DNA from: Anaerolineae bacterium | GTDB taxonomy: Bacteria; Chloroflexota; Anaerolineae; B4-G1 | Direction of reading: 5' to 3' | Assembly: GCA_030612185.1 (NCBI GenBank) | Contig: JAUWOI010000085.1 | Coordinates: 1-11,679 of the forward strand | Length of the DNA stretch: 11,679 nucleotides | Part shown: positions 1 through 11,176 of the stretch, in pieces | Layout: every line of letters begins with the position of its first letter | How positions within the stretch are numbered: position 1 is the first letter of the stretch | The notes under the pieces: generated by a model | The model's database searches: none | Seen by the model: only the letters and a program-made list of their open reading frames with translations | What the model was told of the DNA's origin: nothing | Position numbers and translations under genes: made by a program

Positions 1-20
1 ATTTCGCAGGGTCAGTCACC

Positions 21-116
21 AGACCCTAAGGGTTTTCGTGCAAAATCTGGCAAAAAGAGCTGTTACGCTAGCGAAAAATGGTGTTTACACGATCTTGGGC
101 AAAACCCTTAGGGTCT
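21..116. repeat. REPIN/MITE-like palindromic element 1
   Basis: A 16-bp perfect inverted repeat (AGACCCTAAGGGTTTT at 21-36 and its reverse complement at 101-116) encloses a 64-bp spacer, for 96 bp in all. Each arm is itself a small palindrome (ACCCT-A-AGGGT). The tetramer CACC lies directly outside both ends (17-20 and 117-120), as a 4-bp target duplication would, though four bases can match by chance. No ORF fits inside. The size and paired-palindrome layout resemble REPINs or very small MITEs. The mobilising enzyme is not identifiable here. Confidence 0.6.
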
Positions 117-179
117 CACCACGCGAAATCCCAAAGAGCCACCGTGCAGAGGCGTCGGAACCCCGGATCGCGTCATCGC

Positions 180-208
180 TTGCGCCGAACAGACAACTGG
201 CGTACAAT
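180..208 (+). promoter_or_regulatory. Possible sigma70-type promoter of the Vps62-PrsW gene
   Basis: A TACAAT -10 hexamer (203-208, 5 of 6 to consensus) follows a weak TTGCGC -35 (180-185) at a 17-bp spacing. It would start transcription near 215 and leave a leader of about 27 nt before the GTG start at 242. The weak -35 limits confidence. Confidence 0.4.
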
Positions 209-227
209 TCACGCTCAGATGTGAAAC

Positions 228-234
228 GAGGAGG
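228..234 (+). promoter_or_regulatory. Shine-Dalgarno that decides the GTG start at 242
   Basis: GAGGAGG lies 7 nt before GTG at 242. The only ATG further upstream in the same frame (38) lies inside palindromic element 1, has no comparable site, and precedes the predicted promoter. Translation is therefore placed at 242. Confidence 0.75.
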
Positions 235-241
235 CACAACA

Positions 242-2731
242 GTGCTCACACACATAGGGGCCAAGAAACCGGGTTTTTCACACAGGAAGACCTCGCTGGC
301 AGCGGAAAAGCATCTGCAAGCAATACTGCTTCGCTTGTGGAGCACCAAAAACCCGGTTTCTGCGATCATCGCACTGGCGCTGGTGCTTCTGGCCTGCGCC
401 GTTCCGGTACTGGCCGACGATCCCCCTCCTCCCGAAAGTGACGCCGAGTTGGCCCGGCGCTACGCGCCGGTGTTTTACTTCCACCTGGCCGAGATCTTCC
501 GCCCCCAGCCGGTGGACGTGATCGTGGAACAGGCCCGGTTGCGCCAGAGCCGCAGGCTGTGGTTCGACGTCAACATTCTGCTCAGTCTGGACGTCTTCGA
601 TCTGTTCGACCTCGAAAGCGACGAGAGCCACTTTCTCGACGTCTGGTACGGCGACGACGGCGGTTCAGCCTACACCAATTACTCCGCCCACCAGGCATAC
701 TACGAGGCAGTGCTGAGCCCCGAGGCCGGTGGGCCGCCCGCTGTGGTCTACGCCCACGTGGTGCGGGAAAAGGACACAGGTCACATCACGATCCAGTACT
801 GGGCCCTCTATTTTTACAACGACTGGTTCAACAAACACGAGGGCGACTGGGAAATGGTCCAGGTGATGCTCACCGCTGAGGGTGAGCCGGAATGGGTGGT
901 GCTCAGCCAGCACCACGGCGGCACCCGCCGACCCTGGGCCAGTGCGCCAGTTGAGCCAGTCGAAGACGGCACGCACCCGGTAGCCTACGTCGCCCTGGGC
1001 TCGCACGCCAACTACTTCGCCGGCGACGAGATCTACCCCAATGGGAAGGACATCGCCAAGACACGCGTCGAGATTCTGGACCGCACGGGCACCTGCGACC
1101 GTCTGATCCCCGACGTGATTCTGATCCCCGACCGAGCCGACCTGGCGACGGACCCCGGCGCGTGGCCGGGGGCGGAGTGGCTGCCCTACCGTGGCCGCTG
1201 GGGCGAGGTGGCCGTCCAGAGCGACTTCGGCGGCCCGCTAGGCCCGGCCGACAAGGGCGCGCAGTGGGAACAGCCCTATGCCTGGGGGATGGCCCAACCC
1301 CTGGACACGGATACATGGTACGCTAACCGGCTGCGAGTGGAGGTCGTCGGGGCAACTGCCGAAGAGGCCCAGGTACAGTTGGCGGACGAGCGCGGCGGCG
1401 ACTTGTCCCCGGTGGAGGAATTGGGCCACCTGGCCATCTTGCATAACAACCCACTGACAGGGACGGGAGTCGTGGCTTCCATCAGCGTTCTCCCCAACAG
1501 CCGCTGGGACGTGGTCGCCACCTGGCCTGACGCTGCGGCAACGCAGGTGACCCGGCTGCGCTTCGCCGCTGTGCCGTTCGCCGAGTCGGGCCATGCGACG
1601 CTGGAACTGGGGCCCGGCCCCGTGGCAAGCCTGCTGGTGGAGGGCGCAGGCGACGGGGGGAGCGACCTGGCGCTGGAGCCTGCGGAGACGGAGACCTTCG
1701 AGGTCACGTGGGACGCACCCGACCTGGTCTGGATCGGTACCGTCCTCCCGGCGCACCAGGTGGGAACGGGGTTGCTGATTGTATTGCTGGCGAGTGTGGT
1801 ACCGGCGCTGGTCTACGTCGGCACGCTCTACTGGGTGGACCGGTACGAGAAGGAGCCGAAGCGGCTGCTGGCGGCAACGTTTCTGTGGGGGGCCATCCCG
1901 TCGCTGGCGCTGGCGCTGGCGGCGGAACTGTTCTTTCGGCTGCCGCCGGACCTGATCGGTGCCCATGCGTTGGAAGCAGTGCGGCTGGGCCTGATCGCGC
2001 CGCTGTTACAAGAAGTCTTAAAGGGCGCGGCGGTGCTTTTCATCTCCTGGCGCTACCGGCGCGAGTTCGACAACGTCCTGGATGGCATCATCTACGGGGC
2101 GATGGTGGGCTTCGGCTTTGCGATGACGGGGAATATCATCAGTTACGCCGGCAGTTTCGCGCTGTGGGGCTTCGACGGACTCAGTGTCTCCGTCTTCGCT
2201 GAAGGGCTGGCCTACGGTATGAACCACGCCCTCTATACAGCAATCTTTGGCGCGGGGCTGGGACTTGCCCGCCTGACGCAGAAGCGGAGGCAGCGTTGGG
2301 TCTTATCTGTGGGAGGATTCGTGCTGGCGGTGGCGACTCACGCGCTGCATAGCCTGCTGGCGCGCAATCTCCTGGGGTTGAACGTCGTGACAGTTCTCGC
2401 AACAGGAGCGGGGGTGATCCTGGTCGGGATCGTCACAGGCTGGTCGCTGGCGCGGCAGCGCCGGTGTCTGATAACCGAGTTGGTGGGCGAGGTGCCAGAC
2501 GCGCTCTACCGCACGCTGACCGCCCCAGGGAGGCGCAGCCGGGCAGAGTGGCGGGCGCTATGGACCGGAGGGATGAGTGAGTGGCGGCGCGCACGACGAC
2601 TACACGAATGGTGTACAGAACTAGCCTTCAAGAAGATGCAGCACCGGCGGCGGCCCGATGAGTCTGAGATAGTTCAGGAAATTGAACGGTTGCGCCAGGA
2701 GATCAGCGCACTGGTCGAACACACGGAGTAG
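242..2731 (+). CDS. Secreted Vps62-like domain fused to PrsW-family intramembrane protease-like domain
   Basis: An 829-aa protein starting at GTG 242. Residues 39-58 form a hydrophobic signal or anchor segment ending in VLA-DD. Residues about 65-365 look like a Vps62/DUF946-type domain (YAPVFYFH near 74-81, HEGDWEMVQV at 199-208, VALGSHANYF at 250-259). A beta-rich linker follows to about 500. Residues about 508-740 are a multi-helix PrsW-type domain with the family EKEP motif (536-539), MNHALYTAIFG (660-670) and HALH (700-703). PrsW proteases cleave membrane substrates such as anti-sigma factors. Here the usual EExxK reads QEVLK (590-594) and the usual FAxxEN reads FAMTGN (626-631), so activity is doubtful. 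The last 90 residues are charged and probably cytosolic. Residues 8-40 are encoded by palindromic element 2. Domain assignments come from motif recognition: PrsW is fairly certain, Vps62 less so. Confidence 0.8.
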   Translation: MLTHIGAKKPGFSHRKTSLAAEKHLQAILLRLWSTKNPVSAIIALALVLLACAVPVLADDPPPPESDAELARRYAPVFYFHLAEIFRPQPVDVIVEQARLRQSRRLWFDVNILLSLDVFDLFDLESDESHFLDVWYGDDGGSAYTNYSAHQAYYEAVLSPEAGGPPAVVYAHVVREKDTGHITIQYWALYFYNDWFNKHEGDWEMVQVMLTAEGEPEWVVLSQHHGGTRRPWASAPVEPVEDGTHPVAYVALGSHANYFAGDEIYPNGKDIAKTRVEILDRTGTCDRLIPDVILIPDRADLATDPGAWPGAEWLPYRGRWGEVAVQSDFGGPLGPADKGAQWEQPYAWGMAQPLDTDTWYANRLRVEVVGATAEEAQVQLADERGGDLSPVEELGHLAILHNNPLTGTGVVASISVLPNSRWDVVATWPDAAATQVTRLRFAAVPFAESGHATLELGPGPVASLLVEGAGDGGSDLALEPAETETFEVTWDAPDLVWIGTVLPAHQVGTGLLIVLLASVVPALVYVGTLYWVDRYEKEPKRLLAATFLWGAIPSLALALAAELFFRLPPDLIGAHALEAVRLGLIAPLLQEVLKGAAVLFISWRYRREFDNVLDGIIYGAMVGFGFAMTGNIISYAGSFALWGFDGLSVSVFAEGLAYGMNHALYTAIFGAGLGLARLTQKRRQRWVLSVGGFVLAVATHALHSLLARNLLGLNVVTVLATGAGVILVGIVTGWSLARQRRCLITELVGEVPDALYRTLTAPGRRSRAEWRALWTGGMSEWRRARRLHEWCTELAFKKMQHRRRPDESEIVQEIERLRQEISALVEHTE
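264..361. repeat. REPIN/MITE-like palindromic element 2, inside a coding region
   Basis: A 15-bp perfect inverted repeat (AGAAACCGGGTTTTT at 264-278, reverse complement at 347-361) surrounds a 68-bp spacer, 98 bp in total. The arm holds the palindrome AACCGGGTT. Its outer edges (AGA...GGTTTT) match those of elements 1 and 3. It lies within the N-terminal coding part of the Vps62-PrsW gene, where the arms encode KKPGF and KNPVS. The flanking tetramers GCCA (260-263) and GCGA (362-365) match at 3 of 4 positions, so a target duplication is possible but unproven. Confidence 0.6.
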
Positions 2732-2742
2732 AGGCAATTTAG

Positions 2743-2788
2743 TCATTATGTCATTGCTTCATTGTTCATTGCTTCATTGCTTCATTGA
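2743..2788. repeat. TCATTGCT octamer tandem array
   Basis: Nearly six copies of an 8-bp unit, TCATTGCT, some shortened to 7 bp or varied (TCATTATG, TCATTGT). They fill almost the whole spacer between two convergent genes (stops at 2731 and 2792). No hairpin terminator is visible in this spacer. It is a likely slippage-prone VNTR. Confidence 0.8.
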
Positions 2789-2791
2789 CAC

Positions 2792-3436
2792 TCACCGATT
2801 CTCCAACCGGAACCCGTGCCCACGCACAGTAACAATGTAGTGGTGATCCGGGTCTGCGGCCGAGATACGGTCGCGCAGGCGGCGCACCAGCGCATCAATC
2901 GCCTGTTCGGAGATGCCCACCTCTTCATCTTCGGACCACACGGCGGCCACGATTGTTTCCCGCGCAATCACCTCACCTTCGTGGTCGAGCAGTAACTCCA
3001 GCAGCCGGTACTGAGACACCGAGAGAGGCGGGGTCAACTCGTGCCCCCCGACGAAGATCCTCTTGGCAGCCCGGTCAACGTGCAGTCCACGGCGTGGACC
3101 GGTCAACTCCAACGGCAACGTCGCGTCAGCGCCCACAAAGCCCATCTTGATGCACAGCGCGACCTGTATCTCGTCCCCATCCTTCAGACGGTACGGCTCA
3201 TCGTGCACCTCCCGGCCATTGACGCAAGTGCCGTTTTTGCTCCCCAGATCGCGCAGCAGATAGCCACTGGAGTCCCGTTCGATCTGGACGTGGTGGCGCG
3301 ATACCTGCCGCTCCGGGAGCACGATGTCACATTCCGACCCCCGCCCGATAATCACCTGACCCTGCTCGATGACCCAGCGCTGCCCTTCCAGTTCTCCCTC
3401 GTAGACAATGAGCATTGGCATGTCCAGTCGTGTCAT
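2792..3436 (-). CDS. FHA domain protein with C-terminal OmpR-type winged helix
   Basis: A 214-aa predicted cytosolic transcription regulator. Residues about 8-98 are a forkhead-associated domain with all usual signature residues: GR at 31-32, SRHH at 46-49, SKNGT at 66-70 and N73, which together bind phosphothreonine. Residues about 118-212 match a Trans_reg_C winged helix (recognition region SEQAIDALVRRLRDRI, wing VRGHGFRL). The order is opposite to mycobacterial EmbR, where the winged helix comes first and FHA last. The start at 3436 is chosen because GAGGAGG lies 5 nt before that ATG; an in-frame ATG 20 codons upstream lacks a site. The gene is divergent from a Ser/Thr kinase 202 bp away, so it is probably a phospho-dependent regulator controlled by that kinase. 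Target genes are unknown. Confidence 0.9.
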   Translation of the reverse strand: MTRLDMPMLIVYEGELEGQRWVIEQGQVIIGRGSECDIVLPERQVSRHHVQIERDSSGYLLRDLGSKNGTCVNGREVHDEPYRLKDGDEIQVALCIKMGFVGADATLPLELTGPRRGLHVDRAAKRIFVGGHELTPPLSVSQYRLLELLLDHEGEVIARETIVAAVWSEDEEVGISEQAIDALVRRLRDRISAADPDHHYIVTVRGHGFRLENR

Positions 3437-3441
3437 CACAA

Positions 3442-3448
3442 CCTCCTC
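3442..3448 (-). promoter_or_regulatory. Shine-Dalgarno of the FHA regulator gene
   Basis: GAGGAGG on the minus strand lies 5 nt from the ATG at 3436 and decides the start. It lies 5 bp from the edge of palindromic element 3, so a hairpin in the leader could affect access to it. Confidence 0.8.
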
Positions 3449-3453
3449 ACTCA

Positions 3454-3552
3454 AGACCTGACAGGTTTCCACGAATTTCGTCACTTGAGGCCCCATCTGT
3501 CACTCGGCAACTGTGTTGAACAGCAAATCTTGGGTAAAAACCTGTCAGGTCT
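3454..3552. repeat. REPIN/MITE-like palindromic element 3
   Basis: A 15-bp perfect inverted repeat (AGACCTGACAGGTTT at 3454-3468, reverse complement at 3538-3552) encloses a 69-bp spacer, 99 bp in total. Each arm is a palindrome (ACCTG-A-CAGGT). Directly inside the right arm is ATCTTGGG, also found at the same place in element 1 (92-99). It occupies most of the spacer between the divergent FHA and kinase genes. No target duplication is apparent. Confidence 0.65.
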
Positions 3553-3574
3553 GATCAACCGGGAATTGCTGTAC

Positions 3575-3603
3575 TTGACAGAATCGCTCTTCTCGCTTAT
3601 GAT
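3575..3603 (+). promoter_or_regulatory. Strong sigma70-type promoter of the Ser/Thr kinase gene
   Basis: A perfect TTGACA -35 (3575-3580), a 17-bp spacer, then TATGAT (3598-3603, 5 of 6). Transcription would start near 3610, about 29 nt before the kinase ATG. It lies 22 bp outside palindromic element 3. It is the best promoter match in the window. Confidence 0.75.
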
Positions 3604-3638
3604 GAAACGCAGCCGCAACAGAGAGAAGAAGAGAAAAC

Positions 3639-4625
3639 ATGGTCCGCCTGCTTGCATCCGAGACCGTCCTGCGTGGACGGTACAAAATCATTGCGCCTGT
3701 CGGCCAAGGGGGTATGGGCGCAGTATACCGCGCCGAGGACCTGCGCCTGGAAGGTCGCATCTGTGCGGTCAAAGAGGTCCGCCCAGACCCAGAAGCCACG
3801 CCAGAGGCGCTGCTCCAATCCCAGGAGCAATTCCGCCGCGAGGCCTCCACTCTGGCGCGGCTGGACCACCCCAACCTGCCCAAGGTCTCCGACACCTTCA
3901 GCGAGAGTGGGCGTGAGTACCTGGTGATGGACTTCGTCGGTGGGCCGGACCTGCGCCACCTGATGGAGGAGAACCGTCGCCAGGGTAAATTCCTCGACGA
4001 GCAACTGGTGCTTCGCTGGGCCGACCAGTTGTGTGACGCGTTGGAGTATCTCCACAGCCAGGACCCTCCCGTACTCCACCGCGACATCAAGCCGGCCAAC
4101 ATCAAGTTGACGCCCGGTGGACTGATTAAACTGGTGGACTTTGGGCTGGTCAAACTGCTGGCGGCGGACGACTCCCACACCGTCACCATTCTGCAAGGTC
4201 GGGGCACCGTAGCCTATACCCCGTTGGAGCAGTATGGTGGAGATACCGGCCACACCGATGTCCGTTCCGACGTTTACTCGTTTGGCGCTACGCTCTACCA
4301 CCTGTTGACCAATCAACCCCCAGTAGATGCCAAGCAGCGGTTCCTCAACCCCAACGCGCTCCTATTCCCGCGAGCGATCAATCCACGCATCCCTCCCACC
4401 ACAGAGCGTGCCATTATGACAGCCATCGCCATGCATCCCAGTCCACGCCCACCGAACGTGGCAGCGTTTCGGGAACTGCTACACGCCAATTCCATCCCCT
4501 CCTCCTTGCTTCCCCTGGTTCCCGCACAAGGGGAGTGGCGCCGGGCAGTGATCGAAAACCGGGGCTTGCTATCGTTTGCCGCCGTGATGCTCATCCTCGC
4601 CGTATTGGTGACCTTCTTCAATTAG
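3639..4625 (+). CDS. Tail-anchored Hanks-type Ser/Thr protein kinase
   Basis: A 328-aa kinase that transfers phosphate from ATP to Ser/Thr of protein substrates. All catalytic landmarks are visible: glycine loop GQGGMGAVY (22-30), ATP-binding K45, helix-C E68, HRDIKPAN (147-154, catalytic D149), DFG (167-169), TPLEQ in place of the APE motif (194-198, common in bacterial kinases) and D211 in SDVYSFG. The kinase domain covers about 14-285. A single hydrophobic helix (309-327) ends at the C-terminus, so the enzyme is tail-anchored with the kinase domain facing the cytosol and no extracellular sensor or PASTA repeats. The ATG at 3639 follows a purine-rich stretch (GAAGAGAAAAC) and a strong promoter. 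The divergent FHA-winged-helix gene is the obvious candidate partner. The signal it senses cannot be read from the sequence. Confidence 0.93.
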
Positions 4626-4643
4626 CCGCTCAAAGCCCCTGCC

Positions 4644-4722
4644 TTGCACACTTGCCAACTTGCAAACTTGCACACCTGCCAACTTGCAAACTTGCACACT
4701 TGCCAACTTGCACACTTGCAGC
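4644..4722. repeat. TTGCNNAC octamer tandem array
   Basis: Ten consecutive 8-bp units of the form TTGC(AC/CA/AA)AC, arranged with a 24-bp higher-order period (TTGCACAC TTGCCAAC, then TTGCAAAC). One unit has CTGC. The array fills nearly the whole 97-bp gap between the convergent kinase and GH3 genes and ends at the GH3 stop codon. The 8-bp period and absence of spacers exclude a CRISPR. Likely a VNTR. Confidence 0.85.
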
Positions 4723-7587
4723 CTATCCAGACCGTCTCCACCGGCCGGCAATCCGCGCGATAACCAGCGGCACCACCCCGCCCAGCAGCGCCATCCATCC
4801 TGCGGCCCACACGCCAGCCTGCTCTCGCAACCAGACAGCCCCTGGCGCGCGCAGAGCGTAGGCCAGATACAGCGCCAGTCCGCCTATCATACACCACAAC
4901 GCCACGCGCAAAGCCCGGCTGGCTGGACCGTTGTCAAAACGCACAACGTAGTACCCCGTACCGCCGACGACGAGGACACCGAGCAGCGCCAGGGTCAGGT
5001 CCAGAAATCCGACGCTCTCGACCGCGGGGGGTATCTCTTCCTCCTCATTTCCCGGCCCAGGCGTGGCTGTGGGTGTTTCTTCGACCTCCGGTTCTGGCTC
5101 CGGTGTAGGAGTTGGTCGCGGTGTGGACGTAGGCCTGGGCGTGGACGTGGGCGTGGGCGTCCAGATGATGGCTGGCTCCCCCTCCGGGATCGTGATTTGC
5201 AGGCAGATTGTGCGCGGAACGGGGTCTGCCTGGATGGATATTTCTAGTTGCCCCGTCCGTTCCAGCGTAACCGCCGTTTCGGCCACGCCGCCCTGGGTCG
5301 CTTCCACAATAAAGTGTTCCAACCCTTCCTGTGGATAGGTGAAGATGAACCGGACAGGAGTGCCATCGGGCACCGGATGGCCGTTGTGATCCACGATCAC
5401 ACCGGTGCGCAACCTCAATGCGTCGCCAACCTCAAGCCTGGGCGATTCCGGCGTTGGCTGCCCCTCCTCGGGCGGCTCCGGCGTTGGCTGCCCCTCCTCG
5501 GGCGGCTCGCCAATGTCGAAGTAGAGCGTGATGGTCTGCTCAGGATCTGGAGATGTCCGGGTTGATAGGTCATAGTTGATGCCGGCCACACTGACAGGCG
5601 CGGTCCCCCTCGGCGCAAACTCGCCGAACAACGCCCGCACGGAACCCTCGATGGAAGGCCCCATCCGGCCGTAAGCCACGTAGTAAGCGCTCAGTTTGTT
5701 GATCTCAGTTGCATCCAGGTAGTAGGGGGCATCGTAAGCCAGCACGACCAGGTGTGGATCGCGCAACGCATCGGCCCGCTCGGCCAGGAAGCGCCGCACG
5801 GCTCCTGACTGGGGCGGATCGCCGGTCGGGTTGAGCATAGCGAAGATGATCCAGTCGGCCCCTCCCAGTGCCTCTTCGACGGGGTAAGGTTGGGTCGGGG
5901 TGATGGCTTCCCCGGCCGTGGGGGACGGCGACAGCGCGCTCATGTATTCTTCTAGTTGGTCGAAGGTGAAACTAGTCACCCGCCACGGAGTGATCTGCCC
6001 CGTCGCATCAGGGCCATAGAGCCGCACGATTGTATCTCGCAGCGCGAGAGGATCAATATAGGACACAGGAGCACACACAGCGCAGGGTTGCCCCTCCCGA
6101 CCGTCGGTGAAGATGACGATGTTGTCCTCGGGAGTCGGTGGAGAGGGGACCAGGTCAGGTGACGGAGGAGAAAGCAGCGTAATAGCGTCACGGCCAATGG
6201 CCGATGCCGTCTCCAGTTGCAGCCCTACCCGTTCGCTGGCTGTCTCCACGTCCGGCTGGATGGCAGCGAGGTCAAACGTGCCGCCGTAGAGTCTTAGTTT
6301 CAGCCGCAATATGCGCGCTACAGCCGCATCCACCGACATCTGGAACAAGGGATCACTGTCATATTTCTCGCGGAAGAAGGTGATCGTGGACTTGACGTTG
6401 GTTATCCGGTCTTCCCAATCATCAGTGAGCGCAAACTGGGAAAGGAGCAAAAGGTCGTTGCCAGCGAAGAACGCCTCCTGTACGATGCGGCGGCTGTTGA
6501 AAGTCTGCTCGCCGGGATCGTAGAAGCGCCTCAACGCACGCAGGCCCAATCCGTCAGAGACCGTCACACCGCCCGCCTCACGCCAGGCAGCCAGTTCCGG
6601 TAACCCCAGCAGCCGCTGGAGCACCTGGCTATCCACGCTGACCGGGCGGGTGGTAACAAAGCGACCACCCTCCAGCCCCCGGAAGCGGATGTGAGACACC
6701 ATCAACCCGTCCGTGCGCGCCAACGGATCCTCAGCCTGGGTCACAGCGAAAAAGGGAGCCAAGTCAATCTGCCGTAGTTTCTCCAGCGTGCGCTGTACCG
6801 TGGAAACCTCTTCATCAAGTGAACGGTCGGAGGCTCCCAGGCCAGGGAAGTGCTTCGCTACGACCGCGACCTGTCCCTCGGCCCCCTCGTGGACGCCACG
6901 GACATACGCCCACCCCATCTGCCCCACCCAGAACGGCTCACCCCCGAAGGCTCTCACGCCCAGGTCACCGGTACTTTCAGGGCGTGGGTTTTCGAGCACG
7001 TCCAGCGAAGGCCCCAGCAGCATGTTGATGCCCAGACCGCGCAGTTCCTGCCCCACAATCTGGCCTATGCGCTCAGTGTGGCTCAGATTCCAGGTGGCCC
7101 CCAACGCCATCTCAGAGGGCAGAGGTGTCGTCCCGCTGACGATGCCGGTGAACGGCATGCCGTTGCCCTCGTGATTCACGGCGACAAAGAGAGGGACGAA
7201 AGGACCGAGAGATGTTCCTTCCTCGGCGAGCGTCTCGGTCACCGGCTGCGTAGCATCCCAGGCGGCCTGCTGGAGTTGACCGACCAGCGCGGCCACCTGC
7301 GCGGGCGTGTCACCCTCGTTGACGATGTTGCCGTTATCGGGCAGAAGCACTACCCCGCCGATGTGATAATCGCGGATCAGTTCTGCGATGACACCATCCT
7401 CGGCGACCTCGACCCCAGGGAAAGTGACCAGGAAGAGTTGCCCCACCCTGGCCGCGCTGGACATACGTTCCATCAGCCGCGCGACCTCGTCTTCCTCCTG
7501 CGCACGGCCCATTTTGAGCGGCACGAGCAGTATCAATATAGTGACCACGAGGGCCAGTGTAGCCAGTCGTTTCAATTGCTTAGCCAT
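4723..7587 (-). CDS. GH3-family (NagZ-like) surface protein with Ig-like domain and C-terminal membrane helices
   Basis: A 954-aa multidomain protein. Residues 1-29 are a signal or anchor segment. About 35-435 match the glycoside hydrolase 3 N-terminal barrel: VAVNHEGN (135-142), INMLLGPSLDV (187-197), AKHFPG (244-249) and VTVSDGLGL (341-349), where D345 aligns with the catalytic nucleophile. Residues about 450-670 resemble the GH3 C-terminal domain. A linker with PEEGQPTPE twice, an Ig-like domain (about 715-790), a Pro/Thr linker (808-845) and about three helices (860-945) follow. The nearest family, NagZ, removes N-acetylglucosamine in peptidoglycan recycling, but its acid/base histidine (PGHG...DSH) is missing here: the region reads PGLGASDRSLDEE. 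Substrate and activity are uncertain. ATG 7587 directly follows the TAA of the upstream gene and no clear ribosome site is seen, suggesting coupled translation. Confidence 0.85.
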   Translation of the reverse strand: MAKQLKRLATLALVVTILILLVPLKMGRAQEEDEVARLMERMSSAARVGQLFLVTFPGVEVAEDGVIAELIRDYHIGGVVLLPDNGNIVNEGDTPAQVAALVGQLQQAAWDATQPVTETLAEEGTSLGPFVPLFVAVNHEGNGMPFTGIVSGTTPLPSEMALGATWNLSHTERIGQIVGQELRGLGINMLLGPSLDVLENPRPESTGDLGVRAFGGEPFWVGQMGWAYVRGVHEGAEGQVAVVAKHFPGLGASDRSLDEEVSTVQRTLEKLRQIDLAPFFAVTQAEDPLARTDGLMVSHIRFRGLEGGRFVTTRPVSVDSQVLQRLLGLPELAAWREAGGVTVSDGLGLRALRRFYDPGEQTFNSRRIVQEAFFAGNDLLLLSQFALTDDWEDRITNVKSTITFFREKYDSDPLFQMSVDAAVARILRLKLRLYGGTFDLAAIQPDVETASERVGLQLETASAIGRDAITLLSPPSPDLVPSPPTPEDNIVIFTDGREGQPCAVCAPVSYIDPLALRDTIVRLYGPDATGQITPWRVTSFTFDQLEEYMSALSPSPTAGEAITPTQPYPVEEALGGADWIIFAMLNPTGDPPQSGAVRRFLAERADALRDPHLVVLAYDAPYYLDATEINKLSAYYVAYGRMGPSIEGSVRALFGEFAPRGTAPVSVAGINYDLSTRTSPDPEQTITLYFDIGEPPEEGQPTPEPPEEGQPTPESPRLEVGDALRLRTGVIVDHNGHPVPDGTPVRFIFTYPQEGLEHFIVEATQGGVAETAVTLERTGQLEISIQADPVPRTICLQITIPEGEPAIIWTPTPTSTPRPTSTPRPTPTPEPEPEVEETPTATPGPGNEEEEIPPAVESVGFLDLTLALLGVLVVGGTGYYVVRFDNGPASRALRVALWCMIGGLALYLAYALRAPGAVWLREQAGVWAAGWMALLGGVVPLVIARIAGRWRRSG
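5447..5506. repeat. Two exact 30-bp tandem copies in the GH3 gene linker
   Basis: Two identical 30-bp units (5447-5476 and 5477-5506) encode a duplicated ten-residue PEEGQPTPE(P/S) linker segment between the GH3 region and the Ig-like domain. Perfect identity points to a recent duplication; linker length may vary among strains. Confidence 0.9.
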
Positions 7588-9320: not shown

Positions 9321-9335
9321 AGATATCTCCTCTCA

Positions 9336-9403
9336 TCTCTCTCCTCTTCTCTCCTCTCCTCTCCTCTTCTCTCCTCTTCTCCCCTCTCTTTCTTCCCCTC
9401 CCT
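9336..9403. repeat. Polypyrimidine tract with 10-bp tandem repeats (purine-rich leader of the phosphorylase gene)
   Basis: An unbroken 68-nt pyrimidine run on the plus strand, built from about five copies of a 10-bp unit CTCCTCTTCT (clearest at 9341-9380). With one interruption (A at 9335) it extends to 9326. Read on the minus strand it is an A/G-only leader with many AGGAG-like strings, ending at the ribosome site of the phosphorylase gene. It fills the 87-bp gap between that gene and the bPH2 gene. Such mirror-like tracts can form triplex DNA; no function is shown. Confidence 0.85.
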
Positions 9404-10243: not shown

Positions 10244-11134
10244 TTACGCTCGCGGGTGAGCCTCGTCGTAAGCCTCTCGCTTGCGCCGGGTGGAAATCTC
10301 GGTGTAAACCTGCGTGCTGGCGATACTGGCGTGGCCCATCAGTTGTTGGAGTTCACGCAGTCCTGCCCCACCGTCGAGCATGTGGGTGGCGAAGGAGTGA
10401 CGAAATGTGTGAGGTGTAACCTCACGCTCGACACCGGCGGCTGCAGCGTACGTTTTGACAATCAGCCAGAGCCCCTGCCGGGTCAAAGGCCGCCCCCGGT
10501 GATTGACAAACAACACTGTTGTCTCTCGCCCCCGCAGCAACCTGGCACGTCCATTCTCAAGATAAGCGCCGAGCGCTTCCCGCACACGCTTGTATAGCGG
10601 CAGCAGGCGCTCTTTGTTCCCCTTGCCCAGGCAGCGCACCGTGCCGGCCTCCAGATCAACTGCGTCCATCTCAAGTCCAATCACCTCACTGGCCCGCATG
10701 CCAGTGGCGTACATCAACTCGAGCAGAGCACAGTCCCGCAACGCTCTGGGCGTATCAGACTTGGCCGGCTCCGCCAGCAGGCGCGCCATCTTTTCCCGGC
10801 TCAGAGGACGCGGGAGACGTCTGGCCACCGGGGGCGAATCCACCGCAGCGGTGGGGTCATCCTGGAGCACTCCATCGGCAACCAGGAAATGGAAGAACGA
10901 CTTGACGGACGCAATCTTGCGGGCCACTGTCGAAGGAGCGTATTCACGCTCCTTCAGGTACAGAATGTAGTTCAGAATATGCGTCCGGCCCACTGCTCGC
11001 CAGGAAGAAACAATCTCACCTGCCAGATAGGTCAGGAACTGGGTGAGGTCATTGCGGTAGGCCGCGATGGTGTGTTTCGAGTAACCCTTCTCCACTGCCA
11101 GTAAGCGAAGGAATTCTTCAACCTGTGTTTGCAT
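10244..11134 (-). CDS. xerD: Site-specific tyrosine recombinase, XerD type
   Basis: A 296-aa recombinase that cuts and rejoins DNA at specific sites; Xer proteins resolve chromosome dimers at dif, usually with FtsK. The N-terminal SAM-like core-binding domain (about 4-88, including GYSKHTIAAYRNDL at 17-30) precedes the catalytic domain (about 108-285). All active residues are present: R147 in ATGMRASE, K171 in GKGNKER, H242 and R245 in HTFRHSFATH, H268 in LMGHAS and the nucleophile Y277 in VYTEI. The GKGNKERLLPL string is closer to XerD than XerC. The ATG at 11134 is chosen because AGGGGA lies 6 nt upstream; an adjacent GTG at 11137 is the alternative. No second Xer gene is in the window. It could be an IS- or island-linked integrase, but length and motifs fit a housekeeping Xer. 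Confidence 0.93.
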   Translation of the reverse strand: MQTQVEEFLRLLAVEKGYSKHTIAAYRNDLTQFLTYLAGEIVSSWRAVGRTHILNYILYLKEREYAPSTVARKIASVKSFFHFLVADGVLQDDPTAAVDSPPVARRLPRPLSREKMARLLAEPAKSDTPRALRDCALLELMYATGMRASEVIGLEMDAVDLEAGTVRCLGKGNKERLLPLYKRVREALGAYLENGRARLLRGRETTVLFVNHRGRPLTRQGLWLIVKTYAAAAGVEREVTPHTFRHSFATHMLDGGAGLRELQQLMGHASIASTQVYTEISTRRKREAYDEAHPRA

Positions 11135-11176
11135 CACCTGTCCCCTATCGTCACATTCATCTCCTGTCCCAACTAT

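Follow-up and report, generated by a model that had tools for sequence, protein, structure and literature searches.

The window (the whole stretch of 11,679 nucleotides that was analysed) carries reading frames with Pfam matches to a PrsW-type protein, an FHA-winged-helix regulator, a protein kinase and a GH3 enzyme, and further frames matching a purine nucleoside phosphorylase, a bPH/SHOCT protein and a tyrosine recombinase, the gene for the last of these (positions 10244-11137) being of XerC/XerD size. Its minor features include a tandem repeat with an 8-bp period (CTTGCACA/CTTGCCAA) at 4643-4735, between the kinase and GH3 genes, and intergenic short direct repeats at 2743-2787 and 9326-9373, made up of TCATTGCT and TCTCCTCT units.

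Three paired palindromes, designated E1, E2 and E3 and each a putative REPIN, are the subject of this analysis. E1 (21-116) is of the type AGACC-N5-GGTTT with the core CTAAG; its 16-bp left arm AGACCCTAAGGGTTTT (21-36, forward strand) is perfectly complementary to the right arm, a 16-bp inverted copy on the reverse strand (101-116). E3 (3454-3552), upstream of the FHA-winged-helix gene, is of the same type with the core TGACA, and its 15-bp left arm AGACCTGACAGGTTT (3454-3468, forward strand) is again perfectly complementary to the inverted right arm (3538-3552, reverse strand, 15 bp). E2 (264-361) falls inside the frame that encodes the PrsW-type protein and has perfectly complementary arms of 15 bp, AGAAACCGGGTTTTT, at 264-278 and 347-361. 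A first-pass annotation of this DNA had described three elements with inverted arms of 15-16 bp, and its coordinates proved exact; they are the only pairs in the window with arms of at least 15 bp and a loop of 40-120 nt, and no such pair arose in 300 first-order Markov shuffles. Its observation that E1 and E3 carry ATCTTGGG inside the right arm in identical orientation was also borne out. The single arm plan that it saw in all three elements applies to E1 and E3 but not to E2, whose arms represent a sister type, AGAAACC-N-GGTTT.

A search of the window with the strict pattern AGACC-N5-GGTTT..AAACC-N5-GGTCT returned E1 and E3 only, with 0 expected from 200 shuffles. Single arms, when 2 mismatches were allowed, occurred 14 times against 8.7 expected, a number reached by 12 of 200 shuffles; since single arms are thus near chance level, the signal is carried by the pairing of arms. 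A comparison of positions 1-3800 with Rfam gave nothing above cut-off, the one match (E 0.9) scoring 15.4 bits against a cut-off of 39; by this comparison the pairs are not a known RNA family.

The PrsW-type membrane protein gene (PF13367; 242-2731, forward strand) was read by eye as starting at the GTG at 242, with GAGGAGG ahead of it at 228-234, and so E2 is probably not intergenic but within an open reading frame. From this GTG there are 58 residues to the likely end of the signal peptide, again read by eye. In four relatives, with starts and ends placed in the same manner, the corresponding distances are 25 (L386; 67% identity to the PrsW-type protein), 26 (L389; 62%, over part of the protein only), 24 (L387; 54%) and 23 residues (L388; 50%). 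The E2 stretch is absent from all four, and omission of the 99 nt from 263 to 361 keeps the frame and leaves a signal peptide of 25 residues, as in the relatives. From this comparison E2 seems to be an in-frame insertion of 99 nt that lengthens the signal peptide by 33 residues.

For E3, the orthologous spacer could be compared in the four nearest relatives listed (L165, L166, L168 and L169), and the element is absent from all of them. L165 and L168 have a short spacer and L166 and L169 have other sequence at the place of E3; in L165 the aligned flanks abut and 126 bp are missing, which exceeds the length of E3 (99 bp), so that none of the four provides a precise empty site.

Dispersed copies in related genomes

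The family counts and the linkage to genes for a REP-associated tyrosine transposase (RAYT) described from here on come from the genomes of relatives and not from the window's own genome. Among 396 genomes of one class, whose central member is G012 (from a record named Chloroflexi bacterium), the proteins closest to the FHA protein of the window were found in G387 (81% identity), G288 (79%), G223 (76%) and G315 (75%), and on the strength of this identity we infer membership of the window in the G387 family. Searched against genome contigs, the strict pattern with 50-80 nt between the arms matched at least 116 stretches. The matches listed were mainly in records named Anaerolineae, Anaerolineales or Chloroflexi, and also in Bacteroidota, Thiotrichaceae, a Planctomycetota and a Methylobacter record; among them, elements from Chloroflexi records were mostly 94-103 bp long and those from Bacteroidota mostly 80-85 bp.

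Eighteen genomes picked for holding a match contained between 3 and 149 AGACC-type pairs each, and a reversed-pattern control gave 0 in all 18. In the family of G387, AGACC-type copies are present in 3 of 11 genomes (8, 9 and 3 copies); G387 itself, the nearest genome, has none by the strict pattern. The sister type represented by E2 was found in 22 of the 396 genomes, the richest having 61, 55 and 45 copies, and G402, of the family of G387, has 3. A REPIN-type family with many copies, as the first-pass annotation had predicted, is therefore present in relatives.

The commonest cores among the matches listed were TGACA and CTAAA (31 each), TGTCA and GCAGA (8 each) and CTTAG (7). The earlier proposal of palindromic cores with compensatory changes describes E1, E2 and E3 but does not extend to the family, since CTAAA and GCAGA, both common there, are not self-palindromic. 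Conserved instead is the match between the two arms of an element, whose five free core positions are complementary in 93-97% of cases (151 non-identical elements); the outer arm positions were fixed by the search pattern and are therefore uninformative on complementarity. In the loci scanned there were 180 pairs against 29 unpaired arms.

The distribution of the copies bears on the idea that selection holds the pairs in place as bidirectional terminators of transcription or as regulatory hairpins of another kind. E3 does lie between divergent genes, and by eye the AGACC..GGTTTT arms resemble a weak stem followed by a T run. However, not only the arms but also the spacer is common to family copies within one genome, the pairs are absent from orthologous places, E2 is in a reading frame, the arms border RAYT genes (see below) and Rfam gave no match above cut-off in 1-3800. 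Taken with these points, a role as terminator or other regulatory hairpin is very unlikely.

Immediately beside the AGACC arms, target duplications of 1-10 bp were not above chance in the 151 elements. The first flanking bases were complementary in 6% of these, which is below expectation, and therefore the two sides of the element differ. Further out, conserved outer repeats flank copies in three genomes, G001, G002 and G009 (for example L016, L060 and L087), which raised the possibility that the pairs are the inner parts of TIR-type MITEs, with a DDE transposase reading the outer inverted repeats and the AGACC arms as passengers. With four tandem rows left out, 26 of the 147 elements scored at least 10 for an outer inverted repeat, compared with 4 of 441 shuffled pairings. 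When 30 copies from G001, G002 and G009 were inspected for direct repeats outside the outer repeats, 19 could not be resolved, and 6 of the 11 resolved copies had direct repeats of at least 6 bp (control 11.5%); the possible direct repeats in these genomes are 6-9 bp long. Thus, in G001, G002 and G009 the pairs may be carried by a DDE-type MITE. As an account of the family as a whole this is unlikely, as the outer repeats vary between genomes whereas the AGACC arms are constant, most of the 147 elements have no outer repeat above chance, and the arms border RAYT genes. Within the window, E2 and E3 have outer repeat scores of 6 and 5, which is shuffle level (E1 was left out, the window starting 20 nt before it).

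RAYT genes bordered by the arms

The link between the arms and RAYT genes was found, via weak matches, by comparing the proteins of two loci, L220 and L269, with all frames of the fetched loci; L220 is a Y1 gene of Gillisia bordered by AGACCTCACAGGTCT hairpins, and inverted pairs of REPIN size were present around several further Y1 loci scanned. RAYT genes stood beside AGACC arms in four loci (L208, L091, L073 and L063) that had been retrieved with nothing but the arm pattern. One of these, L208, is from G409, which belongs to the G387 family, and its RAYT gene has hairpins with the core of E1, CTAAG, on both sides.

A search with the L208 RAYT gave matches in 129 of the 396 genomes, and 30 loci, one per genome, were fetched from it. 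Strict AGACC arms were present at 22 of the 30, compared with none of 30 control FHA loci, and inverted pairs of at least 13 bp at 30/30 RAYT loci and 12/30 FHA loci. The first-pass annotation had predicted a RAYT/Y1 gene flanked by the same palindromes, and in relatives such genes exist, including the one in G409. Among 29 resolved frames (L297 was left out), 19 had an inverted pair within 120 nt on both sides of the RAYT gene, and in 17 an inverted pair lay inside the RAYT frame, not all of these being of the AGACC type. Over the 30 loci, the REPs flanking the RAYT were mostly hairpins of 33-36 nt and not pairs of 97-98 bp. In G104 (L372), the RAYT match has a 100-bp pair of the E2 type on one side and a 33-nt hairpin on the other.

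The motifs NHFH and YIHxNP were present in 29 of the 30 RAYT frames. Three of the linked RAYTs scored 17.5, 24.9 and 29.4 bits against the Pfam model Y1_Tnp (cut-off 23). For three RAYTs compared with NCBIfam, the only model that matched was NF047646 (REP_Tyr_transpos), with 54.4, 56.8 and 65.1 bits, below its cut-off of 80. A PDB search with the L208 RAYT gave no match at E 0.1.

Genes for Y1_Tnp proteins over the Pfam cut-off occur in 16 of the 18 genomes, and the pairs could on this ground be non-autonomous relatives of IS200/IS605 moved by an ordinary TnpA. At the 30 best Pfam Y1_Tnp loci, however, AGACC arms were near only three (L122, L132 and L140), as a single arm within 1.5 kb, and on both sides of none; one of these three arms has a 6-nt core. 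Nor was an IS-sized unit bounded by AGACC arms seen in the loci scanned, with their 29 unpaired arms and 180 pairs. The ends of IS200/IS605 elements are not known to be inverted copies of one sequence, unlike the two ends here. Together these points make movement by an ordinary TnpA extremely improbable. The nearly negative result with the Y1_Tnp model was also considered as a case against a RAYT and was set aside, two of the linked RAYTs being barely over the cut-off of that model and one below it.

Taken together, the evidence makes it very probable that the three pairs of the window are REPINs, each a non-autonomous element (about 96-99 bp) composed of two inverted REP arms and a spacer, and that the RAYT gene stands elsewhere with copies of the same REP at its borders. 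The best explanation for the partner of each type is an HUH/Y1 transposase (NHFH...YIHxNP) bordered by copies of the REP of that type. The genome of the window presumably contains such a RAYT, which would move E1, E2 and E3 and may be active at present. When 58 genomes, the majority with dispersed pairs, were searched at a threshold of 1e-6, a RAYT match was obtained in 41 and was absent from 17, including G002 and G009 with 118 and 149 copies.

If each RAYT serves its own REPs, the core flanking it should recur among the dispersed copies. The RAYT-flanking core was found among the sampled dispersed cores in 6 of 20 genomes, with 2.6 expected (P=0.017), the sampling of dispersed cores being shallow, often one locus per genome. 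In the other 14, including G409, in which the strict dispersed pairs have mostly the core TCCGA, it was not among the sampled cores. A first run had given 8/22 (P=0.0006) and included G418 and G433, which were left out because their only dispersed element is the RAYT locus itself. A run with extra copies gave 10/20 (P=0.0001 among the cores listed, which lack G321 and part of G088), but the eight genomes resampled for it had all been non-matching previously; this figure is therefore biased and was not relied on. The cores that flank RAYT genes and those of dispersed copies are moderately coupled, in part of the genomes sampled.

Comparison with known REP systems

In Pseudomonas fluorescens SBW25, a REPIN is made of two inverted REPs with a spacer and is the replicative unit, and for GI the first residues of the two 16-mers are 71 bp apart, according to the passages of Bertels and Rainey (2011; PMC3116915) used here. 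The family described above is like these REPINs in having an inverted REP pair, a hairpin in the single strand, a link to a RAYT and many copies. It differs from them, as far as those passages go, in the arm sequences and the tag, in that the RAYT-flanking copies in relatives of the window are mostly short hairpins, and in that some copies here are in frame inside genes.

Against the subclasses of TnpA-REP given in the rows compared from Quentin 2018 (PMC6006769), the agreement is partial. Subclass 2.4 (RAYT group 4) has a GT[AG]G foot and the motifs WQ and YIxNNP. The present RAYTs are like it in that REPs lie in frame within the tnpA-REP gene, between the HUH and Y motifs, and in the double-foot REPs (with a foot at both ends) and the NH[IFV]H motif, but they have F[QE] in place of WQ and YIHxNP, and the arms lack the GT[AG]G foot. 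Subclass 2.6, from Bacteroidetes and with atypical structures, also has no GT[AG]G and its motif YIH[QN]NP is close, but unlike the RAYTs here it has WQ and NH[LIV]H. The motifs of subclass 2.1 (NH[YF]H, FQ and Y[IV]HLNP) are close to those of the present RAYTs; this subclass is reported in those rows without REPs, unlike the RAYTs here. No subclass row compared fits all of their features.

A GT[AG]G foot was not enriched, occurring within 8 nt in 10 of 192 flanks against 9.06 expected from shuffling, with 2 immediately adjacent. In the W-Q motif, F stands in place of W in 45 of 53 RAYT frames, 3 frames (Pedobacter) have W, and 5 could not be parsed; two genes are counted twice in these figures. 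In the text of Quentin et al. (PMC6006769) consulted, W94 and Q95 are among the conserved residues of the classes that read GTAG, and the role of W94 is termed unclear. GTAG-tagged REPs have been reported from Chloroflexi and CGTC-tagged REPs from Bacteroidetes (Di Nocera 2013, PMC3733652; the parts compared). The present elements resemble both of these in being palindromic repeats that form dimers with spacers of 20-100 bp. They are unlike the GTAG REPs in that GT[AG]G is not enriched, and, with arms ending AGACC/GGTCT, appear to differ from the CGTC type. Going by sequence, their tag is neither of the two described in the literature compared, GTAG and CGTC, and no description of an AGACC/GGTCT tag was found in the literature searched.

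In the sections of PMC8266576 used here, the GTAG foot is crucial for the E. coli TnpA-REP, which cuts at CT, and for the RAYT of Marinomonas the foot takes part in the choice of site, A3G4 being proposed to choose CT. The arms of the present family keep AG outside ACC and CT outside GGT. We propose, by analogy, that in this family the part played by A3G4 and the CT site in GTAG-tagged REPs would fall to the constant outer AG of AGACC and the CT of GGTCT. The arms would fold when the DNA is single-stranded, for instance during replication; the RAYT would read the arm hairpins and cut each GGTCT arm at its terminal CT; the element would then be excised or copied and joined elsewhere without target duplication. 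Since one RAYT has to fit both arms, a core change would become fixed in both.

More broadly, it is possible, though we hold this view tentatively, that the elements represent a further REPIN tag class, with a foot shortened to AG (AGACC...) at one end and CT (...GGTCT) at the opposite end. This class would have evolved together with RAYTs in which F took the place of the conserved W, and would be spread across Chloroflexota, Bacteroidota and some gammaproteobacteria. Its members would in certain genomes have been captured in TIR-type MITEs and so have reached the highest copy numbers, and others would have inserted in frame and changed proteins, among them the RAYT itself and a signal peptide. 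Studies of hairpin reading and choice of the cut site by TnpA-REP have used GTAG-tagged REPs. A large natural group that lacks the GTAG foot, has an altered position among the conserved residues of the RAYT and carries free 5-base cores specific to lineages would be a ready panel for tests of recognition. The in-frame copies would be cases in which a miniature mobile element adds a peptide to genes that stay open.

Several Y1 loci had other arrangements. In G011:C41, at about 5203-6992, two tandem RAYT genes were accompanied by four AGACC pairs of 95-96 bp with the core CTAAA. Further Y1 genes (L269, L373, L371, L127, L128, L212, L250 and L262) are bordered by other inverted palindromes; such palindromes, for example AGACTTCCGAAGTCT and AGGTGCCAGGCACTT, form pairs at about 96-101 bp, and in a genome named Draconibacterium the pairs bordering a Y1 gene are 82-84 bp long. 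In several of the 18 genomes, Y1 domains were also seen inside open frames of 430-602 aa, as in G018:C149.
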